A DNA stretch of 64,000 bases from Watersipora subatra (lineage: Eukaryota > Bryozoa > Gymnolaemata > Cheilostomatida > Watersiporidae): NCBI RefSeq assembly GCF_963576615.1, contig NC_088715.1, positions 27,889,463 to 27,953,462 on the forward strand, read 5' to 3'. Positions 4,271 to 45,718 of the stretch are shown here, piece after piece. The notes under the pieces are model-generated. The model saw only the letters and a list, made by a program, of their open reading frames with translations, was not told where the DNA came from and did not search any database. Position 1 is the stretch's first letter. Each line of letters begins with the position of its first letter. A program made the position numbers and the translations under genes.

Positions 4271-4789
4271 GTCGCGACCATAGACCTATTAACTATACTA
4301 GACTGGGCAATCCAATGCATCACGGCTCAGCATTGTGTCCCACTTAAATAGCCACATTCTTCACGACGTAACGTCAACGCTTTGTTCACTTGCAGCTGGT
4401 CAGGCAAGTGAGTCATCATTGTTTACATTGAAAGAATGGCTGAGACAGCTTTGTTGCTACATGTAATTTGACATAACTACTAAAGTACACAAGATATTGG
4501 TTTAAAATTTTAGATGCAAAGCTTATACACTATGTTTTTCCTACCCTGCAAATTTGTAAACATAAAGTTGAATATTTCATATGTAAAGTGCCAGTAAAAA
4601 TGTATATATCTATTCAAAAATATTGCAAAATTATCAATGTTGCCCTATGCTATGGGCTAACATGTCAGATAGCTAGGTGCACAAACTGATTTCAAATGCA
4701 TACCCACTGGTAAATGGTACACTGATTGCAGTCTGCCATGAATATAAATGTTGGGTCTTAGGTGTTATGCAAACAGCATCAGAAAATAG
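4271..4789 (+). repeat. Left terminal inverted repeat of the P-type element
   Basis: It pairs with 6558-7063 in inverse orientation. The inner end is at a GATGCTGTTTGC-type junction shared by both arms. The short frame reading outward here (4677-4901) is only TIR sequence, not a gene. Confidence 0.8.
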
Positions 4790-6557: not shown

Positions 6558-7063
6558 TTTGATGCTGTTTGCATAACACCTAAGACTCAACATTTATGTT
6601 CATGGCAGACTGCAATCAGTGTACCATTTACCAGTGTGTATGCATTTGAAATCTGTTTGTACATCTAGCTATCTGACATATGTTAGCCCATAGCATAGGG
6701 CAACATTGATAATTTTGCAATATTTTTTGAATAGGTCAATATACATTTTTACTGGCACTTTACATATGAAATATTCAACTTTATGTTTACAAATTTGCAG
6801 GGTAAAAAAAGCATAGTGCATAAGCTTTGCATCTAAAATTTTAAACCAATATCTTGTGTACTCTAGTAGTTATGTCAAATTACATGTAGCAACAAAGCTG
6901 TCTCAGCCATTCTTTCAATGTAAACAATGATGACTCACTTGCCTGACCAGCTGCAAGTGAACAAAGCGTTGACGTTACGTCGTGAGGAATGTGGCTATTT
7001 ATGTAGGACACCGTGGCTTCGCATTGCCCAGTCTAGTATAGTTAATAGGTCTATGGTCGCGAC
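6558..7063 (-). repeat. Right terminal inverted repeat of the P-type element
   Basis: It is the inverse partner of 4271-4789, with the same GGTCGCGAC tip. The arms differ at scattered positions, including short indels, so the insertion is old. Confidence 0.8.
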
Positions 7064-8685: not shown

Positions 8686-8960
8686 AAAGTGTATTAGACA
8701 AGTGTATTAAAAGGTTTTCTACCGTACAATCCACTGAAACCAAAAAGGCGGGACCTGAAACCAACTCACTTGTGCTCGACTGGAAAAAATTAAGTGGGTT
8801 GAAGCCAAAGCTTCTACTGCACAACCTGCTGAAACCAACAAGAGAAAAAGCTAAGAGCCAAAACTAACCCACATCTGCCTTGTTGAAACCCACAGCGTTT
8901 GCTCAACATAATGTTTCTTAGTTTCTTACAATCTGCCAAAACCAGCAAGGGGGAGCTGAT
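8686..8960. repeat. Diverged minisatellite related to the array at 12065-12620
   Basis: Repeated CTGAAACCAAC-like and AACCAACTC-like words occur at irregular spacing, with the same order of words as in the 12-kb array (for example ACTCACTTGTGCTC). It has many more mismatches and is an older relative or founder of that array. The open frames on both strands here come from the repeat. Confidence 0.6.
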
Positions 8961-9537
8961 ACCAACTCAGTTCTCCTCTGTTAAAGATGGTAATATTTTA
9001 CTTTTGTATTGCCTAATTATATGCTTGTATATTAATACATATATTAATACGTAGAAGTATTCACTAATTGGGACAAAATATCAATCTAGCAAAATTTAGG
9101 TGAACTTTAGTATAACTGGGTGAACTCTTAATTCAAACTAAGTAAAACTCACAATAAACTGCCAGGCTTGTCAGTACACTTTTTTCTTGGTTTCTTTTCA
9201 TGCAATGAACTACAGAGTACATTCTACAAACAGACTGGATGTGCTTTTCATAGCATTAAGACCGCTTTGATTATATGTTATTCAAACTATTTTTAAAAGA
9301 AACATCAAAGAACTTATATCATTATATTTTCAGTGAAGAGCCCTGTAAATGAAATGTTAAGCAATGAAAACGAAGAATGGTTTATCTGTTATTAAATTGT
9401 TCAGTTTCAATTTCAAAATATGAAACTATGCAGTGCTGATATGTCAGTCACTTGTCTCCTACCAACAGACTTGATCATACCCAGAAGCTTACGCCATTGT
9501 ATTAAGTTTTGAATCATAGACTTTCATTCATTTACAG

Positions 9538-9709
9538 AATAAAAGAACAATTGTACAGCCTGTAGAGCAAGGCACCGAGGTAATTGCTGAAAAGCTCATT
9601 TCGAAGTCCCCAGAGAATTCATGTTCTATATCAAACACAAGTCTGGAACTAGAAGGCATTATAGATGCCGATTATAATGACCTTCTGCTGGAATGTATGA
9701 TGGTAGAAG
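9538..9709 (+). CDS. Duplicated small exon A (candidate alternative exon)
   Basis: The exon is 172 nt, preceded by TTTACAG and followed by GTAACT. It is open in one frame only (57 codons plus one base), starting NKRTIVQPVE and ending with the conserved core LLLECMMVE. It shares sequence with four other copies in the window. If the donor is not used, an in-frame stop follows two codons later, so a terminal-exon reading is also possible. An AATAAA lies downstream in most copies. The product is not recognised; the core is acidic and the start basic. Its gene partners may include the upstream C2H2 exon, but that is inference from shared duplication only. Confidence 0.45.
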
Positions 9710-9872
9710 GTAACTAGCTGAAACTGTATTTGTTAACTCATTGTGTTAATTCCCACTGTATAGATAAATTTAATACTGTCAGCAATTAACAAGGAAAGTT
9801 AAGAGCGTCACAAATTTAAACATGAAAAGTGTGACTTTACAAAAGGTACATGAGACTTACATTTATTTACAG

Positions 9873-10032
9873 AATAAAAGGACAATTGTAGAGCCAGGCA
9901 TCGAAGTAATGGCTGAGGATCTCACCTCGAAGTTCCCAAAGGTTTCGACATCAAACATAAATCTCGAGCTAGAAGGCATTGTAGATGCAAATTACGATGA
10001 CCTTCTACTTGAATGTATGATGGTTGAAGAAG
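9873..10032 (+). CDS. Duplicated small exon B (candidate alternative exon)
   Basis: The exon is 160 nt, between TTTACAG and GTAACT. It reads 53 codons plus one base, starting NKRTIVEPGIEV and ending LLLECMMVEE. The phase is 0 at the start and 1 at the end, as in copies A, C and D. The upstream intron shares about 150 bases with that of copy C, so B and C arose from a local tandem duplication. Splicing B directly to C would produce a stop at the join (G + AATAA). Confidence 0.45.
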
Positions 10033-10196
10033 GTAACTAACTGAAACTGTATTTGTTAACTCATTGTGTCAATTCACAGTGTATAAATAAATTTGATATT
10101 GTCAGTAATTGACAAGGAAAGTTTAGAGCGTCACAAAGTTGAACATGCAAAGTGTGAGTTTACAAAAAGGTACATGAGACTTACATTTATTTACAG

Positions 10197-10362
10197 AATA
10201 AAAGGACAATTGTAGAGTCAGGCATCGAGGTAATGGCTGAGGAGCTCACCACGAAGTCCCGAGCTTTGTCACGTTCCATATCAAATACAAGTATGGAGCT
10301 AGAAGGCATTATAGATGCCAACTATAATGACCTTCTGCTTGAATGTATGCTGGTGGAAGAGG
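10197..10362 (+). CDS. Duplicated small exon C (candidate alternative exon)
   Basis: The exon is 166 nt, after TTTACAG and before GTAACG, with 55 codons plus one base. It starts NKRTIVESGIEV, has the core MELEGIIDANYNDLLLECM and ends VEEG if read on. Length differences from A and B are multiples of three and fall in the middle of the exon, which supports past coding selection. Here the frame stays open for about 26 more codons past the donor, unlike the other copies. Confidence 0.45.
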
Positions 10363-10659
10363 GTAACGAACTAAAACTGTATTTGTTAACTTATTGTGTT
10401 AATTCACACTGTATAAATAAATTGAATGTCAGTAATTGACAAGGAAAGTTTAGAGCGTCCCAAATTTGAACAAGAAAAGTGTAACTTTACAAAAGGTACA
10501 CTGCGAAAGTCTATTGAAACTAATTGTGACAGTGTTATTAGAATGAAATATAGTTAATCATCAACAGAGTTAAGATGGTAATATTTTACCTTTTTATTGT
10601 CTGATTATATTTATATTTCTCAAAGTAAGTCTGTCTTCTGTATGTATATATGTGGATAT

Positions 10660-10790
10660 GTTGGTACGCATTCCCGCTATAGATCTTAAAATCTCGAAAT
10701 AAAGATTCCGTACCAATAAAATTTCGATCTCGGACCCTGCCATTCACCATTGCGACGCGCTATCTACTAGACAACGAAAATTGAATTGCC
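10660..10790 (-). mobile_element. Probable tRNA-derived SINE fragment
   Basis: Read on the minus strand it has a GTAGATAGCGCG A-box-like part and a GGGTCCGAGATCGAA B-box-like part with tRNA-like spacing. The match to tRNA is poor, there is no cloverleaf, and no family assignment is possible. Confidence 0.3.
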
Positions 10791-11209
10791 ACCTTGCCAA
10801 TATAAGCCAGCTAATACATGTATATTATTAGCCAGAGCACTCAAAATAAAATTTCATTGATTATTGAACAGATTTTTCATTCTTGAGCATAAAAAGCAGT
10901 GAATATGTAAACTTGACGTTTTGTACATGAAACAATATGAAATACAACTGCTCATTTTAGAAGTTGTAAGGCATGAAAAAAGAAAAATTTAGACGCTGGC
11001 TGGCAAAGAACTTGAATGGCCTTGCAAAACTATGTTGCTATTGAAACGTCCTGTCATCAAAAAAAATGACGATGCCTTTCTACACCATCATAGCTGTTTC
11101 CCGTTTCATGTTTAGCATATAGTTTAGGATTGTGTGTAGTATATCTTTTAGTTGAACTTGCCTTTGTGAATTCCCATGAAGTTTAAATGTTTCATGAATT
11201 GTTTTGGAG

Positions 11210-11640
11210 TGTGAGTATTATTTTAGTATTACATAGATTACATTCATGAATTTATGTGCATTCATTGTAAGCAAAGCATAAACTTAATTTTAGATAAATT
11301 GAAATCGCAATGTGATTTTTACTTTACTATTAAGTGAATTGAATAGATGTATCTATATAGGTGGTCTCATCATGACATGATTTTGATGCTAGATGAATTT
11401 CATTGCATAGTGGATACTATTTTATTATCAAGTGAATTGCATTTATGAAGTTAGGTGAGTGCAGTATTATCATGAAATGACTTTGATGCCAGATAAGTTG
11501 AACTGCTAAGTGGACCCTATTTTAATTTTTAGTGAATTGTATTTATAACGCTATATGGGTGTAGTGCCATCATGACATAATCTTGATGCTAAATAAGTTG
11601 ACCTGCAGTTAGGTATTATTTTGATATTATATGAATAGTG
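11210..11640 (+). repeat. Degenerate tandem repeat, period about 100 bp, about four units
   Basis: The word GATAAGTTGAACTGC and variants recur near 11291, 11390, 11492 and 11593. Each is preceded by a CATCATGACATGATTTTGATG-like word in the later units. Units are strongly diverged. It lies inside the distal duplicated block and is non-coding. Confidence 0.55.
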
Positions 11641-12064
11641 ATTATTAATCTACGTTAGTGCAATAATCCAGGTTGAATCAGCAGCAATGCTACAATCAGT
11701 AATTAGTCTGTATAGTTAACGTATTTATGTGCAGGGTATTGTTGGTGTTCTTTACATTACCAAATTAGACAGTGTATATTAATGTATTATATTTATGTTC
11801 ACTATTTAAATTGTAAATGCATTCAGTTGTACATTCAAACATAATAGTAAATCATTTTTATTCAGTACATAATGATAAATTTATTGTTCAATCCTTCACA
11901 TATCCATCCAATCAGATGTGATTATCTACAGTTTCATCTAATCACATGGCTGTTCATCAATAGTCCAATTAAATTCTGCAGCTAATATTATGAAACTGCT
12001 GATGAAAACTCGCTAGAGTGGGGTGGCAGCAACCCTCACCTCTAGTCACTGCAGTGTAATAAAC

Positions 12065-12620
12065 GCTGCCGTTACTACAACCTGCTGAACCCAACAGGAG
12101 GGAGCTGAAACCAACTCGCTTGTGCTTTGCTGAAACCAACAGAGTGCGCTGAAACCAACAGAGTGCACTGAAACCAATGCTACAACCTGCCAAACCCAAC
12201 AGGAAAGTGCTGAAACCGACAGAGTGCATTGAAACCAACGCTGCAACCTGCCGAACCCAACAGGGGATAGCTGAAACCAACTCGCTTGTGCTCTGCTGAA
12301 ACCAACAGAGTGCGCCGAAACCAACAGAGTGCACTGAAACCAACGCTACAACCTGCCAAACCCAACAGGAAGGTGCTGAAACCGACAGAGTGCATTGAAA
12401 CCAACGCTGCAACCTTCCGAACCCAACAGGGGGTAGCTGAAACCAACTCGCTTGTGCTCCGCTGAACCCAACAGGATGGGCTGAACCCAACACTGCCGAC
12501 AGTACAACCCGCTGAAACCAACAGGAGGGAGCTTAATCCAACTTACTTGCGCTTTGTTGAAACCAACAGACTGCGCTGAAACCAACGCGGTCCATGCTAT
12601 AACCTGCTGAAACCAACAGG
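12065..12620. repeat. Minisatellite with CTGAAACCAACAGAGTGC-type units
   Basis: Nested repeats occur here: short units of about 19-21 bp built on CTGAAACCAACAGAGTG are grouped into higher-order blocks of roughly 165 bp. Each block contains a Y-shaped order: ACAACCTGC, AACCCAACAGG, CTCGCTTGTGCT. Four overlapping minus-strand open frames (up to 174 codons, rich in VSAxxVGFS) are by-products of a repeat without stops, not genes. Confidence 0.8.
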
Positions 12621-13334
12621 AGAGAACACAAGGATGTAAGAATAATAATTATCTAATTATCCAATGTATTCATAGTATTTTGGTGTGAGCTTGATATTAT
12701 TCTGTTAGTGACGATTATGATACTTCTGCAACAATAACAACTTTATTATAGTAATACTAACTATGCGTCTAATTCAAAAGCCAAACACAAGCTGAACTGT
12801 CTAAAAATTTATGGCAGTATTTATATTACACGAGCGATTGGCCTAGAGTTTGACGGTTATCATTCAAACTGACCAATCATATCATCTTGCTGACTGCTGA
12901 CTTTTTGAAAAATTCTCCACCTTCATAACAATAAAAAAGAGTGCTAGACCATGAACCATTGCAGTATGACAATCTACATGTAGATGCTAACAGAAAGCCC
13001 AGAAAACTCTACGTATACTGGATAGCGAACAATAATCATAAAAAACAGCAAGACATATTTCGAGAATGAAAAGGAATAATCACAAAATCTTATTTCAAGA
13101 AACGTAGAACAAAAACGGAAACAAAAATTATTGAAGTAATCTTTAACAACTAACACTTAATTAGAACAGAAACTTAGATTATTTTGACACGTAACCATGA
13201 ACGTAAGAAATTTCTTCAAATGAGTTAACAGTAAGAAATAAATTAAAGACTGTTCATTGCATAAAATGCTTCATACGTGGCGTCTGCTATCTTTCCTAGG
13301 TCAAACACTATTCCAGAAGTCTCTTTTCTATATA
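12621..13334. other. Gene-free A+T-rich DNA before duplication copy 2
   Basis: It ends at a TATA-like TATATAAATATATACC (about 13328-13345) that precedes the copy-2 zinc-finger exon by about 40 bases. Nothing else is recognisable; a 60-codon minus-strand frame at 12974-13156 has no support. Confidence 0.4.
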
Positions 13335-16300
13335 AATATATACCGGCTATGTCACATTTTCCTTTGATCAGTTCATCATGCTTTTCTGTGCAGAATATCT
13401 GAAGTATTTCGCCTCACTCAGAGAACTGCGACGGCATGAGAGGGGTCACGTCAGGAAAATCAAGTGTTTCCCTTGCGAGAGCGTCTTCGCCACCAGAGCG
13501 ATGTTAGTCCAGCAAACTGAAGAAGAGCACCGGCGATCTGTGGCGACACAAACATCACCCACAAAACTGCCGAGCACAAGCAGACCGAGGGAGAAGAGAG
13601 CACCTTCTCCGAGGCAGCTGCCAAGTGGACACAGGAGACCGGTGTGGCGTCCATCCAACTCGGCTAGGACTTGGGCCACTCCAATACGAATCATTGCCAA
13701 GAACCCCCGAGATCCTCTAACTTCGATGAACTGTATGTCCCTGTGACGGATAAAATCCAAATAGCATAAGTCTCTGGAATTATTCTTCCCGCGGCCCTTT
13801 TCAGGGGCACCACTATTTTCATAGTTTGTTCGTTCGAATATCTCTCTTGATTTTTAAGTTTTCTACTACACTGCACCATATGAGTCTATTTGATTATTTG
13901 ATTTTAGAGACTTGCATTACACTAAAAAGAATTATTGAGCTTTACATCTAAGCTGCAATACACAATCCGTGGATCAGGAAACAGAGAGAGTATACAGAAT
14001 ACAGATTCTCCTACGATGCAAAAAGTTAATTCCCAACGATTATTTTAGAGAAATGTTTTTGTTGTTCATTAAACCATTTCAAACTAGAATCTACTATGAT
14101 GACACTACGACCATAAGGCCCGATTTCGCTATAAAAATGTTCACTTCAGTTGGTTGTTTTATCAACAATCGTACACGAATAACACAGTATACTTATTTGT
14201 CTATCTCAAATAAGTTCCATCGACATTTACACTGAAGTTCGAAAATCCTCACTTCAGTGTAAATACCATCTATAAGCTAATTAATAGACTGAATGATAAA
14301 TACAAAATAATATCTGCAAAATTTATAATCTCAGAGGACGGTCGTTATGGGCAAGTTTACAGCCGCCTGCCCATGGCATTTCTCGTCTGCACGTGCGGGG
14401 CAAGGTCAAAGCACATTGCACAAATATCTATACAAATTACGTGACTCATTTAGACGTCCCGCACGATGGACTGAGTAACGAACATGAACGAGTACTAATG
14501 GGCTTGCGCGTATGATTTTGTAGATAGCATGGGCCAGAGTTGCGCAGTTCCACACGTGTGAAACTAATACGGCTAAGGCATGTGCGTTTTCCATTTTTCT
14601 AAGTTGAATTTTTCAACCGTAATAGCACGAGTTATGTTGTAAGATTTACAATTTCGAACGGACATTTTGAGATAATCTTTCTCAAAATTCAGGTGACTGA
14701 AATATAATTATGAGTGCTCAATTGGTCTTGATTGATTATTTCGAGGAGTGTGTAAATTAATTTTTTACAAAAATAATCTCAAACTAAACGTAAAATGTTC
14801 ACTGCTATCTTGTATTCAAAATACAGTTTGCATTTTATTTGATAATATGGCTACAAATAGAGGCTTTTTGTTAATTAGTTATTAAAGAAATAAAAGATAA
14901 CATATTTCGAAAAGATAAAGATAAGATATTTATAAAAGATAACAGATTAACATATTTCGAGAGGATAGTGAGTATGTTTGTTTGTTTGTTTGTGAATATT
15001 ATTTATTGAGGTTTTTATGAGAAAATAATGTTCTGTTGACCTCATAATTAAAAATTAAAGCTAATATAATGTGGTATAATATGATAATTGAGAATAAAAT
15101 TGATAGTGGCTACAATAATATGATTTCTATAAGACGATAATAAGATCGTTGATTGAGCTGAGTATATATATATATATAGTGTATATATATATGCAAGCTG
15201 AGTTGATTGAGTATTTAGATTCCAAGTTAGTAATTATTAGTATGGTCTTTTTTTTTTTAAATTTTAACGCGGGTGACACAATACTCTACTATTCTTATGT
15301 ATTTTTTTCTCAGTCTCAAAACGTCTGTGTAGTTAGGTCCTTGTTAGAGTCTTGCACTTTTGACAAGCTCATTATTTGACAAAATGATGCTAACAAAGTA
15401 ATATTTGCTCTTGTTATGCCATCCTGTCGTAAAACTAAAAATCGCGACAGATAAAAATGCCATGAGAGCGCACCTCCGCAGAACAGTCTCGACTGGAGGG
15501 AGACATTCCTTTTCGTGGAGTGACAAAAGGACGGGGCTCTTTAGCCGTTCTGTATGGAACTACGATTTATTGGAACAGAGGTTAACCAAGGCCAGACTGC
15601 CGATCGATGCCTTTTAGCGAGATTCATAGAATTTTTGCGCATTTGACAAATTTATTCGTTTCGTGTTCGTAAAATTAATTTATTGTGATTTTCTGTCGAA
15701 ATTTTATAAAATATGTTCTCCAAATAGTAACTGCGTGCTAAATGCTTCTTAAGTACTATTGTTCTGTTTTACTTGCACTTATTTTCCGGTTGTGTTACTG
15801 TTTATCGAGAGTATCGTTCCTTATCTGCAAAAAGTAATATTTCACGGGCTTTTCGTTTGTGTTTAGTTAGTTGTAACATAAATAACAACCAGATATGTGC
15901 AAATATTTTAATTAATACTTTACAAGTCTGATGGTCTCCACTTGCTTTAGGGGTTATATTTTACTTGAACTTGATTAATGGCTAGTTGTCAGTCAATAAC
16001 TTTATTGTTGCGACAGTGAAAAACTCTCAAAATTGCTTATGCAATACATGTATGTACGTATAGGTAAATATAGTTTGGTGGCCACAAGGCACTTTCGTGT
16101 CAACAGCTGGCAGAAGATGGGGTCTATGGTAGCTTAACACTTTTATCATATTTCTAACCTAGTCATCATTAATGGAGTCTCCTACCGATATTTTAGTTGA
16201 GAAGTTAGGATTAATAGGCCATTAAATGGTGAGTAGTATAACAGTAATAGATTTCTTCTTACGCCGTATACAATCAGTGAATCAAAGCCGTAGACCTACA

Positions 16301-16562
16301 TTTATGTCATGTTGTAGTGTGCGGTGTATTAAATTACGCCGATAGCAAGTAGATTTGTAGTCTGTTTCCGGTCTGGCCCAGAGATTCATCAGCGCTGATA
16401 GTAACCCTCCAAAACTTTAATTCACTATTTATACTGATTTTCAAAGTTTGCTAGTAAGGATTGTATTAGCTATTATGGATTGTATAGTTCACTATAATTA
16501 AATACCACATTCTAATGAGCTAATAAGCCTTAATAATAGCAAAGACCAATAATCAAGCGTTT
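13335..16562. repeat. Segmental duplication, copy 2, proximal block
   Basis: It is the direct-orientation partner of 290-3235. It carries the better-preserved zinc-finger exon. It also has an extra A+T-rich stretch with GATAAAGATAAGATA-like and TA repeats (14880-15250) that copy 1 lacks. Confidence 0.7.
13378..13746 (+). CDS. Small C2H2 zinc-finger protein exon (copy 2, doubtful function)
   Basis: The 122-codon open frame starts at an ATG about 40 bases after a TATA-like run. It has two C2H2-like units at residues 4-23 and 29-52: FASLRELRRHERGH (spacing and histidines kept) and KCFPCESVFATRAMLVQ. Finger one has lost its second cysteine (CAEY; copy 1 has CAEC). Finger two has lost its first histidine (LVQQ; copy 1 has LVQH). 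A basic Ser/Pro-rich tail follows. The family would bind DNA or RNA through zinc; with these losses neither finger should fold normally. It could be a degenerating gene, or a first exon joined to the small exons downstream. I do not recognise an ortholog. Confidence 0.4.
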   Translation: MLFCAEYLKYFASLRELRRHERGHVRKIKCFPCESVFATRAMLVQQTEEEHRRSVATQTSPTKLPSTSRPREKRAPSPRQLPSGHRRPVWRPSNSARTWATPIRIIAKNPRDPLTSMNCMSL

Positions 16563-17105
16563 CCCGAGTCGTAAAGCGTGGGTATGAGGATAGTAATCGT
16601 AAAGACAGGGATGATGAGCTTTGAGAAAATATGTAATAGTTTTATTAAATACTTTGCAATACGCTTTTTAAAATCGATTAAAAGTTTTCAATGTATCATG
16701 ATAAGAAGACTGTGTTCCTTTGTAGACCCAGCAACAATACCTATGACAAAGAGTAATTTATCATATAGTTTATACCAAAAATGTAAAATATGAACTGAGA
16801 AGTTTGGCAATGATTCATTATAATCAACACCTATCACTCATTAATCCAGCTGACTCAAGCGAGAAGCCGCTTTCTTTTAAAAAATGCATGATTTTCTGAA
16901 AACAAGAATTTTTAATGAAGCAATGCATCTAATCTCTAATTAATGAATCATTTGATTATTTGTTGAAGTATGAAATGAATGAGTTTGCTAGTTTGCCTAT
17001 TATTGGCTTTTTTCGTTCGTAAGGCTTGTTGGCTTATTAGAATGTAGACCTTGATTATAATGAATTATGTAATCCATAATAGCTAGCTGTGGTAATCAAT
17101 TTAAA
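16470..17105. repeat. Inverted pair of about 80 bp around a gene-free spacer
   Basis: Sequence at about 16470-16530 (GCTATTATGGATTGTATAG, ACATTCTAATGAG) recurs inverted at about 17025-17100 (read on the minus strand: GCTATTATGGATTACATAA, ACATTCTAATAAG). The left arm lies at the end of the duplicated block and has a counterpart near 3165-3210. The 0.5-kb spacer holds only an unsupported 71-codon frame. Confidence 0.5.
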
Positions 17106-17545
17106 TAGAGGTATTAAATTTTTACTGCTACTACCAACATCGGCGGCAATTTCTCACAGGGCGATAGCGAAAACAGAATAAGGACCTATGTATAATCGGT
17201 GCATACAAACACGTTCTGTATGTAAAAAGCATAGATTTATGTTTACAGAGCTGATTGGCGGATTTTGCTAATTGCCCATGGCGCAAAAAATATGTGTATC
17301 TTCGTTATGTATTTCTCCTCATCTTTTAATGGCAAATAGTTACTGCTTGACAACAATATTTCTGGTAAGGATAGTTAATAAGGTATGGGATACTCTATTC
17401 TATCTATTAAACTTAAGATCTGTTATACCCCGTTTTCAAGCCTCCTTGGCAAAAAATGCTCTGTGACCATCAGACAAATACTTCCAACAGGCAGGGCAGT
17501 TTGTGTTTGGCTCTCGAAAGAGGCACACGATGTCGTGTGGAAGTA

Positions 17546-18392
17546 CAGACGGTTCCCAACCTACGAACGAGTTACGTTCCGAACGATTGTTCGTAAGGTG
17601 AATTTGTTCGTAAGTTGCTTCAGTGCTATATTTTGTATTATAATTTATGTTTAAGGCCTATATAAGTATATTGAAGGTTTATATAAGTATGTTTAAGGCT
17701 TGTATAATATTTATTTGTAAATAACATTTAATAAAATGAAGAGAATACATACAGTACTGTACTACGTATTTTATATCATGAAAGGGTCTTCGTCGTCGCT
17801 GGAATTGGCTTCAAAAGTTACTTCCTTCTCCGTAATTCCAATGGAAGAAGATGAGGGTTGATGAGTATCTTCCTTGGAGGATTTACTAGAAACTGATGGT
17901 TCTATGATTTCCCTCTTCTTTTTGCTAATGATTGTCGATTGCATAGGCACTGCACCTTTCACGTGTTCCATTATACGATCTTTCTGTTTATAAATGGTAC
18001 CGACTGTCGAACGATTCAAGTTGTATGCCCGTGCAACGCTCACCATTTTCTCACCCGCATCAAGCTTCTTTATTATTGACACTTTCGTTTCAAATGAGAT
18101 GGCTTGTCTCTTCTTTGCATTACCACTCTCACTAGAAGCCTTTCACTTTTCACCAACCACATTGAATAATGGATGCCCGAGATATTTACTGTACGTAATG
18201 ATAAAAATAAAAAAGGCAGAAGAAGGCGGGATGCTGGGTGGTGCTTCCGAGTACGTAGTGCCTCTTTCTGTCTTTTTGCCGCTAATACGTCGGTAATACT
18301 GATGGTAATTTTTACGGACATACGAACGCGCAGACCCTGTTCGTATGTGCCGTTGTTCGTAACTCGAATGTTCGTAAGTAGGGAACCATCTG
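17546..18392 (-). mobile_element. Non-autonomous Tigger/pogo-type element
   Basis: Its termini are CAGACGGTTCCCAACCTACG and, inverted, CAGATGGTTCCCTACTTACG. It is flanked by TA on both sides (544-545 and 393-394 of the respective lines), the pogo/Tigger target. At 847 bp it is far shorter than an autonomous copy. It holds the N-terminal helix-turn-helix part of a transposase on the minus strand but no DDE catalytic domain. It inserted between the two blocks of duplication copy 2. Confidence 0.85.
17771..18142 (-). pseudogene. Tigger transposase remnant: CENP-B/pipsqueak-type HTH only
   Basis: Read from about 18142 downward it gives KKRQAISFETK, then SIIKKLDAGEKMVSVARAYN and LNRSTVGTIYKQKDRIMEHV, the first helix-turn-helix of pogo-class transposases and CENP-B. 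It continues through a Ser/Lys-rich stretch to an acidic end (SSDDEDPFMI) and a stop at 17771. The second HTH, the DDE domain and the start codon in this frame are missing; a stop lies just upstream at 18143-18145. In the family this part binds the TIRs. The acidic tail resembles a transposase C-terminus joined by internal deletion. Confidence 0.7.
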
Positions 18393-19118
18393 TATTAACA
18401 AAAGCAGATAGTATAATGGAGAACTGCCTAAACCACCGGAGGTGTACACGATATTACAACGATCATGACACCGACTACATCAGAAGACCGGATATAAAGA
18501 CAGGCATCATATACTCATTTACAAGTGGATTAGGAACTGCCTGTGGAAGTAGCCCATGAGGAAAAGACATCAATTGGCCTGCTATAAAACTTTAGTAAAT
18601 GTAACATAATCACAAATGCTATTTTAGCGAGCAAACTGAAATGAGTGATAGTCTTGCAAAGGGCTACGGAGGAGCAACTCTATGAGCATTCATTTCGCAT
18701 GGATTGATGAAAAGGAAACTGTGCTACATTAAAACTGCTACTTTTATATCATGCCTAAACTAATTTCAAAGGAAACATCAATAAACTTATACCGTTATAT
18801 TTTTAGTGAAGAGCCTGTAACTCAAATCGTTTGCAATGAAAATAAAGAATGCATTATTAACTCTTTTTAGATTAACTTTTATATAACCCTCTTTAGGAAG
18901 TTACTAGTGTTTACTTATTGCTAACCAGACCAACTGTATCTTTAGAAAGTACAGGATGTAAACTGCATGAACAACTTGAATAATGTCATTAATTGACAAT
19001 ATGAAACTATGCAGTGGTGCCGTGTCAGTCACTTGTCTACGACCAACATACCTGATCATACCCAGTAGCTTACATCATTGTATTTAGCTTTGATTGATAG
19101 ACTTTCATTTATTTACAG

Positions 19119-19287
19119 AATAAAAGAAAACTCATACAGCCTGCAGAGCCAGGAATCGAGGTGATGGCTAAGGAGGTCGTCTCGAAGGCCCTAGAGGTTT
19201 CTACGTCAAACCTAAATCTCGAGCTAGAAGGCATTGGAGATGGCGATTACGATGACCTTCTACTTGAATGTATAATGGTTGAAAAAG
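19119..19287 (+). CDS. Duplicated small exon D (candidate alternative exon)
   Basis: The exon is 169 nt, between TTTACAG and GTAACT. It has 56 codons plus one base, starting NKRKLIQPAEPGIEVMAKE, with core LELEGIGDGDYDDLLLECIM. The frame and the 0-to-1 phase pattern are kept despite many substitutions relative to A-C. The upstream intron resembles that of copy A (TCAGTCACTTGTCT, TGATCATACCCAG words), so D corresponds to A. Confidence 0.45.
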
Positions 19288-19503
19288 GTAACTAACTTAA
19301 ACTGTATTTGTTAACTCATTGTGTTAATTCGAACTGTAATCTCAGGTTAAACTGTTATTAAGTTGTTCAGTTTCACTTCCAAAATATGAAACTATACATT
19401 TCTGCTATGTCAGTCACTTGTCTCCTACCAACAGACCTGATCATACCCAGTAGCTTATGTCATTGTTTTAATATTTGAATGATAGAATTTCATTAATTTG
19501 CAG

Positions 19504-19688
19504 AATAAAAGAACAACTTTACAGCCTGTGGATCCTGGCATCGAGCCTGGCCGAGGTCATGGCCGACAAGCTCGCATCTAAGCCTTTGAACTTTTAATGC
19601 TCCATATCAAACATCAGTCTGGAACTAGGAGGCATTATAGATGCCGATTATAGCTACCTGCTGCTGGAATGTATGATGGTGGAAGAAG
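19504..19688 (+). pseudogene. Duplicated small exon E, frame broken
   Basis: It has the same splice borders (GCAG before, GTAACT after) and the same start NKRTTLQP. At 185 nt its length no longer fits the phase of the other copies. A small internal duplication (CCTGGCATCGAGCCTGGC) shifts the frame and leads to a stop. The end of the exon is still clearly related (GGCATTATAGATGCCGATTA). It is a dead copy. Confidence 0.55.
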
Positions 19689-20769
19689 GTAACTAACTGA
19701 AACTGTATTTGTTAACTCAGTGGTATTTCGAACTGTATAAATAAATTTAATATTGTCAGTAATTGACAAAAAAAGTTTGAAGCATCACTAACTTTAGCAA
19801 AACATGCGATTTTACTAAAAGAAATTCATCATGAAGGTCTCATGTAACTATATGTGACGGTGTCATTAGGATGAAATATTGAGAGTTCTATCATCAACTG
19901 AGTTAGCATAGTAATAATTCCCCTTTTCCATTGTCTGATGATATATATTACCCAGAGCACTCAAAATAACATGTGATTGATTATTGAACAGTTTTACAAC
20001 TTGATCATGAAATGCAGTGAATATGTAAATTTTAAATTTTTCCATATAAATCAATATGAAATACAATTGCTCATTTTAGAAGCTGCAAGTCGCATGAGAA
20101 AAGGAAGATGAAGCCGCTGGCAGGAAAAGAGGATAAATGGCTTTGTAAGATTATGTTGCTGCCGAAGCCAAACTTGAAAAATCATATCACTAAAAACATT
20201 GACAATGCTTTCCTATTGTGAATTGTGATTATTAAGTTATGGAAGTGCATTCGCCGAGGCTTAATAAACATCAATACCATAATCAATCATTAGTCTGTAT
20301 AGTTAATCTTTTTATGTGTAGATTATTGTTGATGTCATTTCCGATACCAAATTATACAACAATGTGCATTACTGTATTTGAATTATGTTCACTACTTAAA
20401 ATTGTAAATATGTTCAGTTATACATTTGAATGTAACAGTTGTATCATTTTCATTTAGCACAACGATCAATTAGTTGTTCAATCCTTCACATATCCATCCA
20501 ATCAGATGGGCTCATCTACAGTTTCGTCTAATCAAATGTGCTCATCTAGAGCGAGCATCGTCTAAAATGCCTCCATACACCATCTTATCTACATTTCCTG
20601 TTTTATGTCTAGCAAGTTATTGACGATTGAAGCATATGTTTACTTCATATAGTTTATAAATGTGTGTATACTATATCTTTTAGTTGAACTGGCTTTTATG
20701 AGTTCCCATGAAGTTTAAATGTTTGATGGATTGACTGGGAGTGTGGGTATTATTGTAGTATTAATGTGA

Positions 20770-28300: not shown

Positions 28301-31300
28301 ATCTTTAGCCAGTATCTTGAAGAGGTCACCTTCATCAGCCTCTCCTAAGTGAAAGCAAAAAATTATTGCTGGCGTGTCAATGCTGAACCGCTAACAAAGA
28401 TCTATGTTAGTGAAAGTACTAACTTGGCATTGCCATAGTTGAAAAGGAATTTCCCCACGTATCTGTTGAAGGAAGTTGTTCAACTAGATGGTCTCTGGAG
28501 CCCTTGTCAGATGGAACACGGGTTCTAATATTTCCGGAGAAAAATGAGAAATGAATGTCGTCATCGCTGTATACTCTTGTACCGGTTATATCATCTACTG
28601 ACTGTACTTCTAGAACTTGATAGGCATCAAGGATCACTGAATGAGTAGTCTAAAAATAAAAATACAATGAGAATTTACATCTGAATAATAAGACGAAAAT
28701 TATGCATCAGAATAGAATTATGAATAGAACCAAAATCAGTTATAAGTTGTAGGTCAGTGCTTGGAGTACTTACAGGACCAACAATTGGTTGACCATTGTC
28801 AATTCCATCTAAAGTGACACCATTTTGTACCACCATGTTGATTCTTGTGCCATTTTTTACACCAACAACCGCAAACTGGCATCTATCATCTTCAATTACC
28901 ACAGGACTATTGCAGTAAGCATAGTACTCGCTCCCGAGGACGTTTATGGGAAGGGCCAAAAAGCCATCAGTTGAAAACTGTTTCTTATTGATGCCGTAAA
29001 CCACCACAGGCTTGTTTGCAACTAACTTGATGCCTTTGTTTGTTATTGTAGATTTGCCAAGTCGAACACTGTTGACAGGAGTTTGTCTCATGTTTGGGTT
29101 GATAGCGAGTTGCAGCACGCTCCCAGGACTCGCAGGTACATCATTATACTAAAATTATCATAAAAATGTTAGAAGCCATCGCTTCACCTATTAAGATACA
29201 ACAAGACAATGTAAGGTAAAAATCAAAACAAAATGAAGAAATGAACTCACTGTCGGATGTCCTTCACCATTGAACAAAGGCGACGTTACAGATACCAATG
29301 TTCCTGGTTCTAAAGGAGCAATATATAACTCTACTTGATCAACATATCCCGCAGGTAAATCTCTCACAATATTAGACATGAAGGTTATAGCGAAGCTTGT
29401 GCCCGTGGCATCTCTTTGAGTCGGAGGCACCGAATAATCTAAAATAAAATCTTTGGTTAACAACATGCGAAGTCCTAGAACACATATTACACAGCCTAGT
29501 AAAACTACAAACCTTTGCAATCCTCATCGACAAGGCCATCTTCATCATCATCTTTGCCATTGCCACAAGTTTCTTCGTCTGTAGTGCCATCACAATCATT
29601 GTCTATATTGTCTGGGACCTCGAGCATATCAGTTTCTTGACATCCAAATGTGTCGAACTGGTATCCTAATGTTGAAGCAAAAGATTCCCGATCGCTAGCA
29701 CCATATCCAATAGCCATGAACCTCTGAAATGGCAGTTTTACCATTATGCAGGTCATCAAAATTAGTTGCATTTAAGACATGTACCTCACTGTTGTGTGTA
29801 TTTCACTTACCCTGCCGCCACTCATTTTTAATCTATGCATTGCGTTTGGAGTGAGTTCCACTACACCCGCACGATAGGGTAACGCTCTGCCTCGTGAAAC
29901 CGAAACCAAAGCCAAAGAAGTGAGCTCAACTCGATTATCATCAATCATCAGCCTCTCCAGTTCATTTTCAGGAACTGCGAGCAAAACCCAGACCTTGCTG
30001 TAATCCCGCTCTTCAGCATCTTTGAATCGTGGTAGATAAAACTCATTGGCATATTGGTCCACGCTTGGCAGAAAATACATAGATGGATCAGCTGGATCTT
30101 CGTCTCCCACGTTCTTTCCATTTTGCGAGCGGATGAACACCGACACCAAAATCGCTCGCTGAGCTCGAATATGAGTCAAAACGGACATGTCCATAGTTAC
30201 CGGAGACACTAAAACAACACAGTACAGTCAATGTAAGATGTAATGATAACGAGGTAGTGATTAATCAAGAAAAATTTGAAGCGTACTTACTTCCAATGAC
30301 AATCTGGCTGACAGAGTTTGATGATATCAGCTCTACTTGGGTTTCTTCGCCATATGCTATCATTTTTACTACATCGCCTGGCACTGCTCGAGGAGTTGGA
30401 ACATATATAAATTCTTTACCCCATCGATGTGTTCCAAGAACCTGCTCCACAAGGTGATCACGAGATGTCTGGTTGTGATCTTGATAACTACGAACATTCC
30501 CAGTGAAAACAGAAATCTTTCTGCTAGATTGAATTTTCACTCCTGTCAGATCACCGGCCGATTGAGCAAGGTATGTGGTCTCAGGTTGAAGCTCAAATGT
30601 TATGGTTTCTCCTGAAACAAGTTTTAGTTACATAAGTTATCAATGGGAACAACAATGAAAGGAACAAGACATAAGTATATAACATAAATATAAATACAAG
30701 AAATAAAACAAGATATCCATCCAAACAAAGTAATTAAACTATACCATTTGTGTAGCGGAGGCCATTGTAGTCAACAGTAATAGTTTCACTAGCTCTGTCA
30801 GGAATTGTAATTCGAATGATCGCTGGCTCCTAAAAAATACTTGCCGATGCTCAATGCTGAAGCTCAAAGAGCGTGCAAGACAGTTATCTGATCTCAGGTT
30901 ATCTAGCCATTCCACACAACCTTTACCTTAGCGACAATAGCAAACTGTGTTTGAATGCTCTGCAGAGTGTAAGACATGACGTAATAAACATGGTTGTTCA
31001 GCTCCCATGGGAGAATAGAATACGAGTCGGCCGAAAATTTTTCTACATTGAATCCTTGCACCGATATGGGTTCTTGAGAGAACACTTCCACAACTTTGTT
31101 TGCAAGCGAACCATCAACATAGGTATGCCTAAAACAGATAATGAAAACTAACGAAGTTGCCAAACAAACAAAATGAAGCCTGTGCCATCAATCTATTCCA
31201 AGAGCAGTGGCCATTCAAAGCTGATACTGATACCTATTTATTTATACTGATCTATCACAGCACAGTGCTCAAGATGGCCAGTGGACTAGTAGATACATAA

Positions 31301-39900: not shown

Positions 39901-42900
39901 GTCGTGGATGACTGTCGTGATGTCATACGTAGGGTCGGCATACCTTTCAGGAGTCTGCATGCGGCACGTGCTTGTCACCTCTCTCATCGGTCCAACATAC
40001 ATTTCCAAGGCGTAGTGCCTCGGATATTCGACCAAGTTCTCCTGAAACGCCTATAACCAAAAGGCTTTCAAAATGAAGCTAACTCTAAAAGACCAAGCTT
40101 GTAAGATAGATGCAAAAGCTAGCACTGTATTTAAATACTGAAGTTGACTTACAAAGATGTACTTGTAACCTGTGGGCTGTAGCCCGAGATCTTCATCCAC
40201 TTTACCATCTCCATCATCATCAACTCCATTAGACATCTCCTCATCAACATTCCCATCACAATCATTGTCTATTTTGTCACCTGGTTTCATTACACCATTG
40301 ACACAGCCCTAAAATCACAAGTATTCATTGAGCTTTTAGGACTGATGGTCCCTGGGGGTAACAAGTACAATTTTTTAGCAGCTTACACTATATTGCGAGG
40401 TGAACCTCATTCCAATGGCACTTCCATAGGTTTCCATGTTTGCCTTGCCATAAAGGAGCGCCATCCAAGTAGCATCTGGGTTCCTGTTGCCGATAAACAT
40501 CTGACCTGTTAAATTTAATCATTAATTTACTTTATAACCTGGGAGCAAATTAAAGTAATTTATTTCAAACATTTCATTTGAAGTTTAGAAACAAACAATA
40601 CAATTTGGCTATCATTGTTTTACCTTGACCTCGTGGAAGTCGAAAAACCAATCCTTCAATATCCAAATTGCCTGACATTGACCTCCAACCTGTCTGAGTG
40701 CCCATGTTTATCTGTCTACCTTCAGTGTCGAGAAGGTAAAGCCCATTTTTAAATCGTCTTCTGACAGTCAAAATTATGTAGTTGTTGAAGGATAGTTGAA
40801 AACCGTGACTTCTGCAAACACAACGGCCAGTGAGCAATGGGTAAGCCGTGGTTCACCCTAAATCATAAGAATCTAAATCATAAGAAAATCACTAAATTAT
40901 AAGAAAGCCTTCATCAAGAACTCACTTCTGGCTGGACAGTGGCGTGACAAATCGGTAATCTCTAGTCCACATGTCTTCAGGAACCACCATGATAACTGAT
41001 GGGCTATTGATCATATTGTTCAGAGGCGCCGACTTTGTAATTTGCATCACAAGAACTGGCTTGTCAGCCTGCAAAATCATAATATGCCATTCAAATTCTC
41101 TAGTTGCTATTCACAGAGCTTGCTTACTATTTACTGTTACCAAGTAATGCTGCTTTTACCAATCTCACTAGGTTTACTAAAATTATATCCATTATCTGTA
41201 TTGTATCAAAAAGTTATGATTACTATAGTCAGTCAACTTTTTAGTACTTCTATTATTATGATCAAATTCATGATCAATATTAGCGATTTATCTTTATCCA
41301 TTATCTCGTACAATTATAAATTATATAACTATGTAGAAGATTGCTTTGTGCTAAGCTCAAACTCGGTCACACCCGGATAAATAGACCGACAGTCTTTCTG
41401 TTTCCATATTTATTATCAACATTATCGAACAATGATATAAACATTACCTCTATATGAATTGGAAATGAGTTGTTCATGAAGATTTCTCGATGGTCACCTC
41501 GTTGCAGAGTGAAGGAAATTTCACGAGGAATTTGGGAGTCGTCATAATAGAAGAATGTCAACTGGCTGTTATCCTCTTTTGCTATGATCTTGAACAAGTC
41601 GCCGTCATTGCTTTGGCCTAAATGAAAAGTTATGAAATGTGGAAACGTTTTTAAAACTTGGAACCGAACTTGGACCTTCAACCTCGTGGATACATACCAG
41701 TAGTTGCCATTGTGGCAAACGCTTTCCCCCAAGAGTTGGTAGGAAGGAGCTGCTCCACAAGATGGCTTGCAGAGATTTCTTGAGCTGGTACCCGAGCTCG
41801 AACATTACCAGAGAAAAATGAGAAGGGGGTGCCATCTGCAGTGTACACTCGGGTCCCGGTTATATCATCTACCGACTGAACCTCGAGAACTTGAAAGCTT
41901 TGGAGCATCACAGTGACTGTTGTCTGCAAAAATGGATTATAACTATTACAGAATCTGCTTTAAAAAGATGTAAACCTGGAAATATTTTATAAGCAATACT
42001 TACAGGGCCTACAATCTCTGGCACAGTTTCTATCCCGTGCATGGTGATACCACTGCGTACATCGATATTGATCCTGGTATTGTTCTGTACAGCCACGACT
42101 GCCAACTGACATCTATCCTCAGCGAGGACAATCGGACTGTTGCAGAACGCGTAGTACTCGCTTCCCAACACATCGACTGGAAGGGCAAAGAAGCTATCTG
42201 TGGAATACTTATTCTTGCTGATTCCATAAACAGCGACTGGCCGATTAGAAACGATGTTAATGCCCTTGTTCGAAATAGTTGACCGGCCAATCAGGGTGCT
42301 GTCTGCTGAAGTTTGTTTCATGTTAGAGCTTATAGGGAGTTGGATCACACTCCCTTTACTGGCGGCAACATCTTTAAACTGCAAGAGACAATTGCTATAA
42401 TGTAAACCGAAAATTTCAGTGTTGGAGCAAAGCAATGCTATGATGCCTCCATACTCACCATTGGAGCACCGGGGCCATCGTACATTGGTGAGGTGACCGT
42501 TAAAACAGTACCATCCTCCATCGATGCTATGTACAGCTCAACCTGATCGGCAAAGCTTGCAGTCGACATGTCGCGCACTACATTCGACATAAAGCCAACA
42601 ACGAAGTGTGTTCCAGACGCATCTTTGTAGGTGGGAGGTATGAAATCACCTGCAAGCATAGCATCGGACAGTAATTTTCGGTTATGACAAAATACACAAA
42701 ATATGCAGCTATAACGAGACTTACTTTTACAATCTTCATCGACAAGTCCATCCTTATCGTCGTCTTTCTGGTTGCCACAGATTTCTTCATCGACAACATT
42801 GTCGCAATCGTTGTCAATGCCATCACCGACCTTGAGCATGTCCGTTTCTTCACAACCAAACAAATTGAACCGATAGCCCAAAGTTGAAGCAAATGATTCT

Positions 42901-45718
42901 CGATCTTTGGCTCCGTATCCGATAGCCATAAACTTCTAAAATATAACAATAAACTGTAGCAGTTAGGCAACTCGTTAAAATAAATTGGACATCTTGTAAA
43001 TGTCTTGTAAACTTCTACTTGATGTGGACATGTACTTACAGCTCCATTCATAACAAAGCGGTGCATTCTGCTCGGGTTAACAGCCACTGCACCAGCGATA
43101 AAAGGCAAAGCTCGGCTTTTAGAGACGCTACTCAGCGATGTCAAATCTGCACGGACACCATCTACCATCAAATTTAGAACTTGGTCATCAGGAACTGCCA
43201 CCAAAGCCCACACTTTTTGGTAGTCATGTTCTTCAGCATCTCGAAACCTTGGCATCAGGAACTCGCCAGCAAACTGTTCGACACTTGGCAGAATATACAT
43301 GGATGGATCCGCGGGATCATATATCCCAGATTCGCGACCATCTTGTGAGCGAACGAAGACAGCAACTAGTATCGCCTTCTGCGCTCGTATATGCGTCAAT
43401 TCTGACAACTCTAGAGTCAGTGGTGATTCTGGCAAATAAAGCATTCAATGAGACAAAATAGAACACAACTACCAATTTGAGGCACACACAGATGAAGACT
43501 TGCCAAATCATCAGCTCATGCTGCAGTTCACATGTTTACTTTGTTCGATATATTGTGCTTATCTACATATATAAATTCAAATTCAGCCGCCATGATTTTT
43601 CGTTTTTGGAAATAACTATTTTTTATATGAATGTTCTAAAAATGTTTTTTTGAAAAATTAAATAACCTTGCAAGTGGTTGAAGTAGCCCAGCACCATGAC
43701 TAGTTTGACTAACAGTCACATAGAAGATAAGACGCAACACTTACTTCCAATAATTATCTGCCGCGTACGAGTTTCAGATATGAACTCTATGCGCGTTCCT
43801 TCCGACAATGCTATCATTTTCAAGACATCACCTTTTACTGCCCTTGGTGTAGGCACATATATAAAATCTTTACCCCATCTATGCGTTCCAGGTACCTGAA
43901 AGAGCAAGGAACATTGCAGGAGACCATGATAGAAGGCATAATCCTTTGTTCACTATAAAAAATTAGCTCAGTAACTCCGTAACAAAATTAGAATTCGTAC
44001 CTGCTCAACTAGATGGTCGCGAGATGTCTCATTATAGTCATTGAATGTTCGAACATTTCCTGTGAATACAGCTACACGACGACTAGATTGAATCATTACT
44101 CCAGTAAGATCTCCAGCAGATTGTGCGAGATAGCTATTCTCAGGCTTGAGCTCGAAGGTGAAGGACTCTCCTAAAACAAAAATGATGAAACCATAAAACA
44201 AGATACATTTTAGTAATTCGGTAACAGGACAGATGAATCTACACTCATACCGTTGCTGTATCGTAGGCCATTGTAGTCCACTGTGATCGTTTCTCCACGT
44301 CGTTGGGGAATCGTTATTCTGATACTTGTGGTCTCCTAGTAACATTACAAGTTCATTTACATCAGATAATAATCTTGTGTAACTAATGAAAATGGTACAG
44401 TATTTGTGTATTTGTTACCTTGGCAACAATGGCAAACTGTGTTTGTATGCTCTGCAGAGTGTAAGACATAACGTAATGGACATGATTGTTCAACTCCCAT
44501 GGTATGATGTGGTATGCATCGGCAGAGAATTTTTCTACATTAAAACCTTGCACAGATATTGGCGATTGGGCAAAGATCTCGACTACCTTCCTGGATAAAG
44601 ACCCATCAGCATAAGTGTGCCTAAAACCACAGATGTCATTTGGTATAGTTTAAAATATATAGAGCACTTATCAGTTATGCAATCGGTACCAATTTGCTTT
44701 AAGCAGAAAACTTGCTTTACCAACAGGTGACATTTGAGAAATGGAATTCAATATGGCAGTGAATGATTGTGAGAGATTTTTATGGTCAATTCTTTTATGG
44801 TCAATAATCCCAATCAACTAATGATAACTCCTTTTTTGAAATGGCTGAGCACGCAACACCTGGCTAGCCTGCACAATGCAAGTTTGTTTTATCTAATGTA
44901 AATGTGGGAAAAACCAGCAATCTAAAATGAATAGTAATGTTCGATATATTGTGCTTATCTACATATATAAATTCAAATTCAGCCGCCATGATTTTTCGTT
45001 TTTGGAAATAACTATTTTTTATATGAATGTTCTAAAAATGTTTTTTTGAAAAATTAAATAACCTTGCAAGTGGTTGAAGTAGCCACTTGCAAGGTTATTG
45101 CAAATGGCTTGCAAATAATTACCAACAAAGGCAACGATTACATGTTTTGCTCATGTTTGTATAGGTTTTACATTCCTAACGTAACAATCTAATTTGCATT
45201 ACTCAAAATTATTTAAACAGTTGTACCAAAACATGTATAAAGAATTGATCAAATTAAGTCGATTGGCAATTACCTGATCTTATCGCAAAGCTTGAAGCGA
45301 TGGCAATCTCGAGGAGCGACGAGGTCGACGACAGACTTGGGACAATCGCCGCGATTGTAGTAGGGAATAGTTACATTCACTTCGTTGTTATATGTGCCTT
45401 TGTTGCAGACGTAGAGATCAACTGGGCGCTTCAGCGGGTAATCAACAAAATTGTCAATAAACACCATTCTGAAGTACGTGCCATACGCACTTGCAGCACT
45501 AGTGGCCTGGCCTAAAACAAAGACATCAAAATGTAGATTCAATAAATAATTGTGCATTGGAAATTGCTATGTATTACATACCAAGATAAAGAAATTAAAA
45601 AAAGAAATTAAAAAAAAACAGTTTTATTTACAGAGAACACCGAAAAAAACTATACATACTCACCCTTCACGGTTGAGATAAAGAGCAGACTGAACCAAAC
45701 CATCCGCAAGGCAGCCAT
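36934..45718 (-). CDS. Secreted protein with three IgGFc-binding-N-like modules (distal paralog)
   Basis: 23 exons, 1,452 residues: 45718-45664, 45511-45274, 44620-44419, 44335-44251, 44170-44001, 43895-43745, 43428-43040, 42935-42725, 42649-42459, 42378-42004, 41923-41698, 41617-41448, 41068-40926, 40811-40624, 40505-40387, 40308-40153, 40050-39874, 39279-39129, 39050-38875, 38510-38332, 38256-38110, 37995-37787, 37184-36934. All introns are GT-AG with consistent phases. The ATG at 45718 has A at -3 and G at +4; an in-frame ATG six bases upstream is weaker. Signal peptide: MAALRMVWFSLLFISTVKG. Three modules repeat VFTGNVR/FFSGNVR/VFSGNIR with RDHLVEQ or variants, and two Asp-rich segments (DNDCDNVVDEE, DNDCDGNVDEE with DDDGDGKVDED) lie between. 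Compared with the proximal gene, 15 internal exons have the same length, and an intron splits the first VEQ-V site. An extracellular, mucus- or adhesion-type role is inferred from the family. Confidence 0.85.
43542..43688. repeat. 147-bp identical intronic repeat, copy 1
   Basis: It is identical base for base to 44938-45084, 1,396 bases away in the same gene. It lies in the intron between exons 6 and 7 of the distal gene and starts TGTTCGATATATTG. The intron DNA around it is not similar, so it is a recent copied insertion. Confidence 0.9.
44938..45099. repeat. 147-bp identical intronic repeat, copy 2, ending in a hairpin
   Basis: It lies in intron 2 of the distal gene. Its last part forms a perfect 17-base inverted repeat (AATAACCTTGCAAGTGG, arms 45057-45073 and 45083-45099, 9-base loop). 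Copy 1 has only the left arm. This may be a small mobile repeat end. Confidence 0.85.

Follow-up and report, generated by a model that had tools for sequence, protein, structure and literature searches.

Pipe-type modules are described as sets of exons repeated in tandem at the 3′ end of a gene, every set having its own last exon (PMC9013439). Of the clusters of mutually exclusive exons described in human genes, 60% hold exons whose length is not divisible by three (PMC5740500), and the account of the Gr39a locus of Drosophila reports alternative exons that were duplicated, pseudogenised and lost (PMC2204066). Here we analysed an array of small, closely related exons, hereafter cassettes A to E, in a 64,000-nucleotide (nt) window of the genome of the bryozoan Watersipora subatra (assembly GCF_963576615.1, 784 Mb in 239 contigs; contig NC_088715.1, below C8; window C8:27889463-27953462). 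An initial annotation, made from the letters of the sequence, had proposed that a gene chooses one of these cassettes by mutually exclusive splicing. In our comparisons the predicted parent gene lies, as a tandem pair of paralogues, a short way upstream of the window. The groups A–C and D–E are, on balance, probably orphan copies of the 3′ end of this gene that are now mostly decaying and serve at most as occasional alternative gene ends.

The locus shares features with each of the three described systems. Like the pipe-type modules of PMC9013439, it has tandem repeats of 3′-terminal exon groups that each include a last exon; in contrast to those modules as described there, the modules in the window, predicted from sequence, lack normal microexon donors (that of A is missing and the microexon of D is broken) and their last exons are shortened to 10 residues. 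The acceptors and cassettes A–D are intact. The human clusters, in the description given by PMC5740500, likewise combine similar sequences, a common reading frame, length steps of three and lengths not divisible by three; however, the human candidates are internal and checked by RNA sequencing, whereas A–E lie beyond a last exon and a last-exon copy separates A–C from D–E. With Gr39a, as presented in PMC2204066, the locus shares duplicated exons at differing stages and purifying selection that is weaker after duplication, although that locus combines four large alternative exons with three small conserved ones, while here it is a 3′ end that is duplicated.

Cassettes A to E and their distribution in the genome

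The five cassettes of the window are as follows, with positions counted from its first letter.

9538..9709, + strand: cassette A, 172 nt, open, phase 0-1
9873..10032, + strand: cassette B, 160 nt, open, phase 0-1, without a microexon copy of its own
10197..10362, + strand: cassette C, 166 nt, open, phase 0-1, without a microexon copy of its own
19119..19287, + strand: cassette D, 169 nt, open, phase 0-1
19504..19688, + strand: cassette E, 185 nt (2 modulo 3), broken by a 10-nt insertion and stops

What the initial annotation had read from the raw sequence about frame, borders and lengths was confirmed. Cassettes A–D contain no stop in frame 1, the two remaining forward frames carrying 4–6 stops each, and their lengths all equal 1 modulo 3, whereas E has stops in all three forward frames. 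The acceptors read TTTACAG in A–D and TTTGCAG in E, and the donors GTAACT in A, B, D and E and GTAACG in C. Indels among the open copies measure 3, 6 and 9 nt, while those in the flanks, in the same comparisons, include 1, 2, 4, 10, 22 and 26 nt, some of the compared flanks being non-homologous. All six ordered joins of A–D run into a stop one codon beyond the junction codon, so that including two cassettes together breaks the frame. Cassettes A–D show the features of a mutually exclusive cluster (similar exons, one phase, lengths differing by multiples of three), and E does not.

Searches of the genome with DNA and with protein agreed in finding at least 13 copies of the cassette, and all 13 matches lie on the + strand in one 125-kb cluster (C8:27.785-27.909 Mb). 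Of the 13, nine are open, the exceptions being a2, a6, b2 and E. Self-comparison resolved the cluster into two large tandem blocks, about 77–84 kb apart, the first holding six cassettes and the second the same six kinds together with b2. Four further diverged pieces within the cluster (at 80248, 81194, 157481 and 158404 of the region) look like remnants of the 3′ module by sequence, and two open 33-residue copies of the last exon are among them.

Predicted parent genes and probable orphan 3′-end modules

The two paralogues were modelled with exon borders placed by conservation and splice motifs.

C8:27765369-27785643, + strand: gene 1, predicted, 27 exons, 1219 amino acids
C8:27844087-27869275, + strand: gene 2, predicted, 33 exons, 1400 amino acids

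Both models run from an ATG to a single terminal stop with no internal stops, with GT-AG introns throughout and compatible phases at every junction. In each, a first exon with the ATG is followed by a 957-nt open exon, an array of small exons, a 90-nt exon, a 23-nt microexon, the cassette and a 92-nt last exon. In gene 2 the microexon occupies C8:27868435-27868457 and the last exon starts at C8:27869184. The array consists of exons of 165, 42 (once 45) and 63 nt, all symmetric with phase 1 at both ends, and their numbers differ between the paralogues (10, 5 and 6 against 12, 7 and 8). BLAST copies of these exons in the region, 22, 12 and 14 respectively, all fit the gene models. In an aligned profile of 12 units, the 42- and 63-nt exons reach 0.96–0.99 over nearly their full length against 0.7–0.96 in their surroundings, while the 165-nt exon, at 0.77–0.91, does not exceed its flanks.

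All junctions in the models are phase 1 except that between microexon and cassette, which is phase 0. The 23-nt microexon enters in phase 1 and exits in phase 0, and the cassette passes from 0 to 1; the asymmetry of the cassette is therefore accounted for by the microexon, with which it forms one symmetric unit. It was a rejected arrangement that led to the microexon: joining the 63-nt or 90-nt exon directly to the cassette brings phase 1 into AATAA and yields a stop. Shorter models of 31 and 25 exons (1290 and 1109 amino acids) were also set aside, as they lacked some of the 165-nt exons; adding the copies found by BLAST gave the 33 and 27 exons above. Further open stretches that recur between exons of the array were not taken to be exons themselves; one set of them, read as DNA, was without clear splice borders.

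The 957-nt exon (319 residues) has nine matches in the genome, of which the two intact ones belong to genes 1 and 2; the other seven are weak, contain stops and lie on the - strand at C8:27.26-27.35 Mb, about 0.5 Mb from the parent gene. The 165-nt exon has 23 matches: one at C8:25.1 Mb, the other 22 within genes 1 and 2. For the 90-nt exon, the region contains just two full matches, both in the genes. Pfam searches with three cassettes, the 319-residue exon, one repeat stretch and the C-terminal part returned nothing over the cut-off (best Gemin6, E 0.15), and PDB searches with cassette A and the 319-residue exon only returned no match (best E 1.3 and 1). Judged on these two comparisons alone, the gene family appears unfamiliar.

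Around the cassettes of the window, copies of the neighbouring parts of the gene's 3′ end were recognised.

9334..9356, + strand: microexon copy before A, 23 nt, acceptor CAG kept, normal donor GT now TT
9400..9530, + strand: intron stretch from the microexon copy to A, 82–93% alike at eight other places, each preceding a cassette of the cluster
10961..10992, + strand: last-exon copy T' after C, acceptor TTTTAG kept, from the cassette reads EVVRHEKRKI*
18807..18828, + strand: microexon copy before D, one base and the donor lost
20080..20111, + strand: last-exon copy T'' after E, acceptor kept, from D reads EAASRMRKGR*

Sequence comparison thus shows how the modules relate to each other and that their splice sites and phases fit the predicted genes. 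A–C and D–E are separate modules, each with its own last-exon copy, and A, B and C alone form a mini-array with one common last exon. Readings into T' and T'', which start at C8:27900423 and C8:27909542, stop after 10 residues, compared with 30 in the last exon of the gene. No match to the 165-nt exon was found near A–E. Cassette A begins 29.7 kb and D 39.3 kb past the stop of gene 2, whose own cassette lies 30 kb upstream of A. The proposal of mutually exclusive exons is accordingly borne out in part: the copies derive from a coding cassette of phase 0-1, and A–D cannot be joined to one another; they do not, however, lie between the same two constitutive exons, since both groups sit beyond the last exon of gene 2.

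A genome search with the intron stretch gave nine matches including itself; the region also contains two weaker matches (76%). Compared with the resident cassette b1, the stretch preceding A is 78–90% alike in 40-nt steps over 460 nt and cassette A 76%; for E, 130 nt of intron are 88% alike and the broken cassette 60–72% over most of its length. The introns before A and E thus resemble that of gene 2 more than their cassettes do. Cassette D shows the reverse, with 87% in the intron and 93% in the cassette, and among A–D it is the one most like its counterparts in the two intact genes; in another comparison the introns before A, D and E were all 88–90% alike to that of b1. The contrast between intron and cassette could stem from gene conversion, from constraint on the intron (for example in splice choice) or from a maintained diversity of the cassettes. 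Four single-strand folds revealed nothing clear.

Constraint, proposed decay and possible alternative use

Among the nine open copies, pairwise ratios of nonsynonymous to synonymous substitution rates (dN/dS) ranged from 0.23 to 0.71, with 28 of 36 pairs between 0.3 and 0.6. A codon model comparing this ratio (omega) with 1 at fixed kappa and tree gave 0.52 for the nine copies (twice the log-likelihood difference, 2dlnL, 7.75; p=0.005) and 0.47 when limited to the A-B-C group, of which five copies across the two blocks are open (p=0.009). The dN/dS comparison that the initial annotation had proposed as a check therefore came out below 1 over the family. For A–D alone, purifying selection was not detected (omega 0.62, p=0.09), and the 165-nt exon, in 17 of its 22 copies, gave a value not significantly different from 1 (omega 0.81, 2dlnL 1.83). 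Between blocks 1 and 2, the four open cassette pairs (one of them the resident pair a1-b1; the pair with the broken a2 excluded) differ by 9 synonymous and 17 nonsynonymous changes (p=0.15 against neutrality), and ten pairs of resident-gene exons by 11 and 33 (ratio 0.79, p=0.46).

Open frames alone are weak evidence of coding, because in a neutral simulation, with substitutions only and the consensus of the open copies as its starting sequence, all nine stayed open with P=0.076 and at least 9 of 13 were open with P=0.32. Stronger evidence comes from the codon model of the nine copies and, above all, from the complete gene models, and past constraint on the cassettes is supported.

We infer that the 3′ end of the gene (microexon, cassette, last exon and flanks) was duplicated several times downstream. 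A–C and D–E would represent two of these copies, now orphaned, and later duplication of a large block would have led to the 13 recognisable cassettes. Having begun as duplicates of the 3′ end, the modules would now mostly be decaying, with normal microexon donors lost, last exons shortened and E broken. Alternatively, gene 2 may sometimes skip its own cassette and last exon with a microexon spliced to A, B or C followed by T', or to D followed by T''. As the frame bars two cassettes in one product, the choice would be exclusive, and the product would exchange the cassette and replace the basic 30-residue tail by one of 10 residues. Such alternative 3′-end modules are a real possibility, though short of probable. 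Intact acceptors and donors of the cassettes and the likeness of the preceding introns to that of b1, alongside lower likeness over most of the broken exon E, agree with this alternative. It would require introns of about 30–40 kb that pass over the last exon of gene 2 (12 kb if counted from the microexon of b2 to A), the D microexon copy and both last-exon copies look damaged, and the test on A–D alone was not significant. Decay is slightly favoured because the microexons are damaged, the last exons shortened and the modules placed beyond the gene end, and on sequence we consider it somewhat likelier than mutually exclusive use.

Several observations weigh against decay. In four of four computed products, splicing the microexon of gene 2 to one of A–D leaves the frame open as far as the stop in the following last-exon copy. 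The microexon copy before A retains an inner GT (CCCT|GTAAAT) that would yield an 11-nt version in the same phase, and the b2 module, 2.8 kb before the window, has an intact microexon, although its own cassette is broken and no last-exon copy was found for it. The seven orphan cassettes by themselves gave omega 0.51 (p=0.007), and their open frames, with indels in multiples of three, are not predicted by decay alone; this constraint may predate their isolation. As the exon pairs of the resident genes do not differ from neutrality either, the missing recent constraint does not single out the orphans.

The initial annotation had also suggested that each cassette is a terminal exon, since a stop and an AATAAA follow most donors. 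Reading past the donor, A, B and D do reach a stop two codons on (GN*), and AATAAA occurs within 100 nt of the donors of B, C and E; A and D, however, lack it, and C stays open to 80 residues in total. The signal is in any case weak evidence, because the copies are related and 17.3% of 100-nt windows in 9000-20500 contain an AATAAA. In both gene models, moreover, the cassette stands penultimate among the coding exons, with its donor spliced to the last one, so that short transcripts ending in a cassette are very unlikely. Least probable of all, to the point of being barely credible, is a dispersed repeat that is open by chance. An open reading frame (ORF) at 13378-13746, between the two groups, is indeed such a repeat (138 genome matches reported), but the cassette matches are confined to their single cluster, on one strand; the genome-wide scatter that the initial annotation had named as grounds for rejecting exons was not seen.

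Neighbouring features and significance

The repeat ORF at 13378-13746 is on the + strand and has a partner near 333-740; many of its genome matches have open frames of 169–170 amino acids, and it is zinc-finger-like only by weak Pfam matches under the cut-off. As a repeat, it was rejected as a first exon for D. The remaining features are listed below.

4335-4607 and 6739-7011: perhaps a mobile element; inverted repeat with arms of 273 nt that are 97% complementary and separated by 2.1 kb
12075-12667: tandem repeat with a 166-nt unit rich in GAAACCAACAG; sequence at 8738-8808 is related to it
28675-30227 and 41367-42935, - strand: two tandem copies of exons from IgGFc-binding-protein-like genes

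In the latter, Pfam PF17517 scored over the cut-off at 41908-42537, just under it at 29772-30227 and well under it at 41367-41804. Related open frames occur upstream of the cassette cluster, and a fragment lies at the end of block 1. Searches for COX1 and for mollusc haemocyanin and arthropod cuticle families yielded no match; in the latter two the controls gave none either.

The odd 0-1 phase noted in the raw sequence can be traced to a 23-nt microexon in an otherwise all-phase-1 gene, and the guess of exclusive splicing is now testable at named junctions. It is conceivable, though unlikely, that the family varies in two ways, through the copy number of its symmetric phase-1 exons in mid-gene and through a choice among exclusive C-terminal modules whose cassettes would be kept diverse as their preceding introns stay alike. 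The paralogues, with their unequal numbers of repeated exons, offer a useful case for the growth of exon arrays and the fate of 3′-end duplicates.

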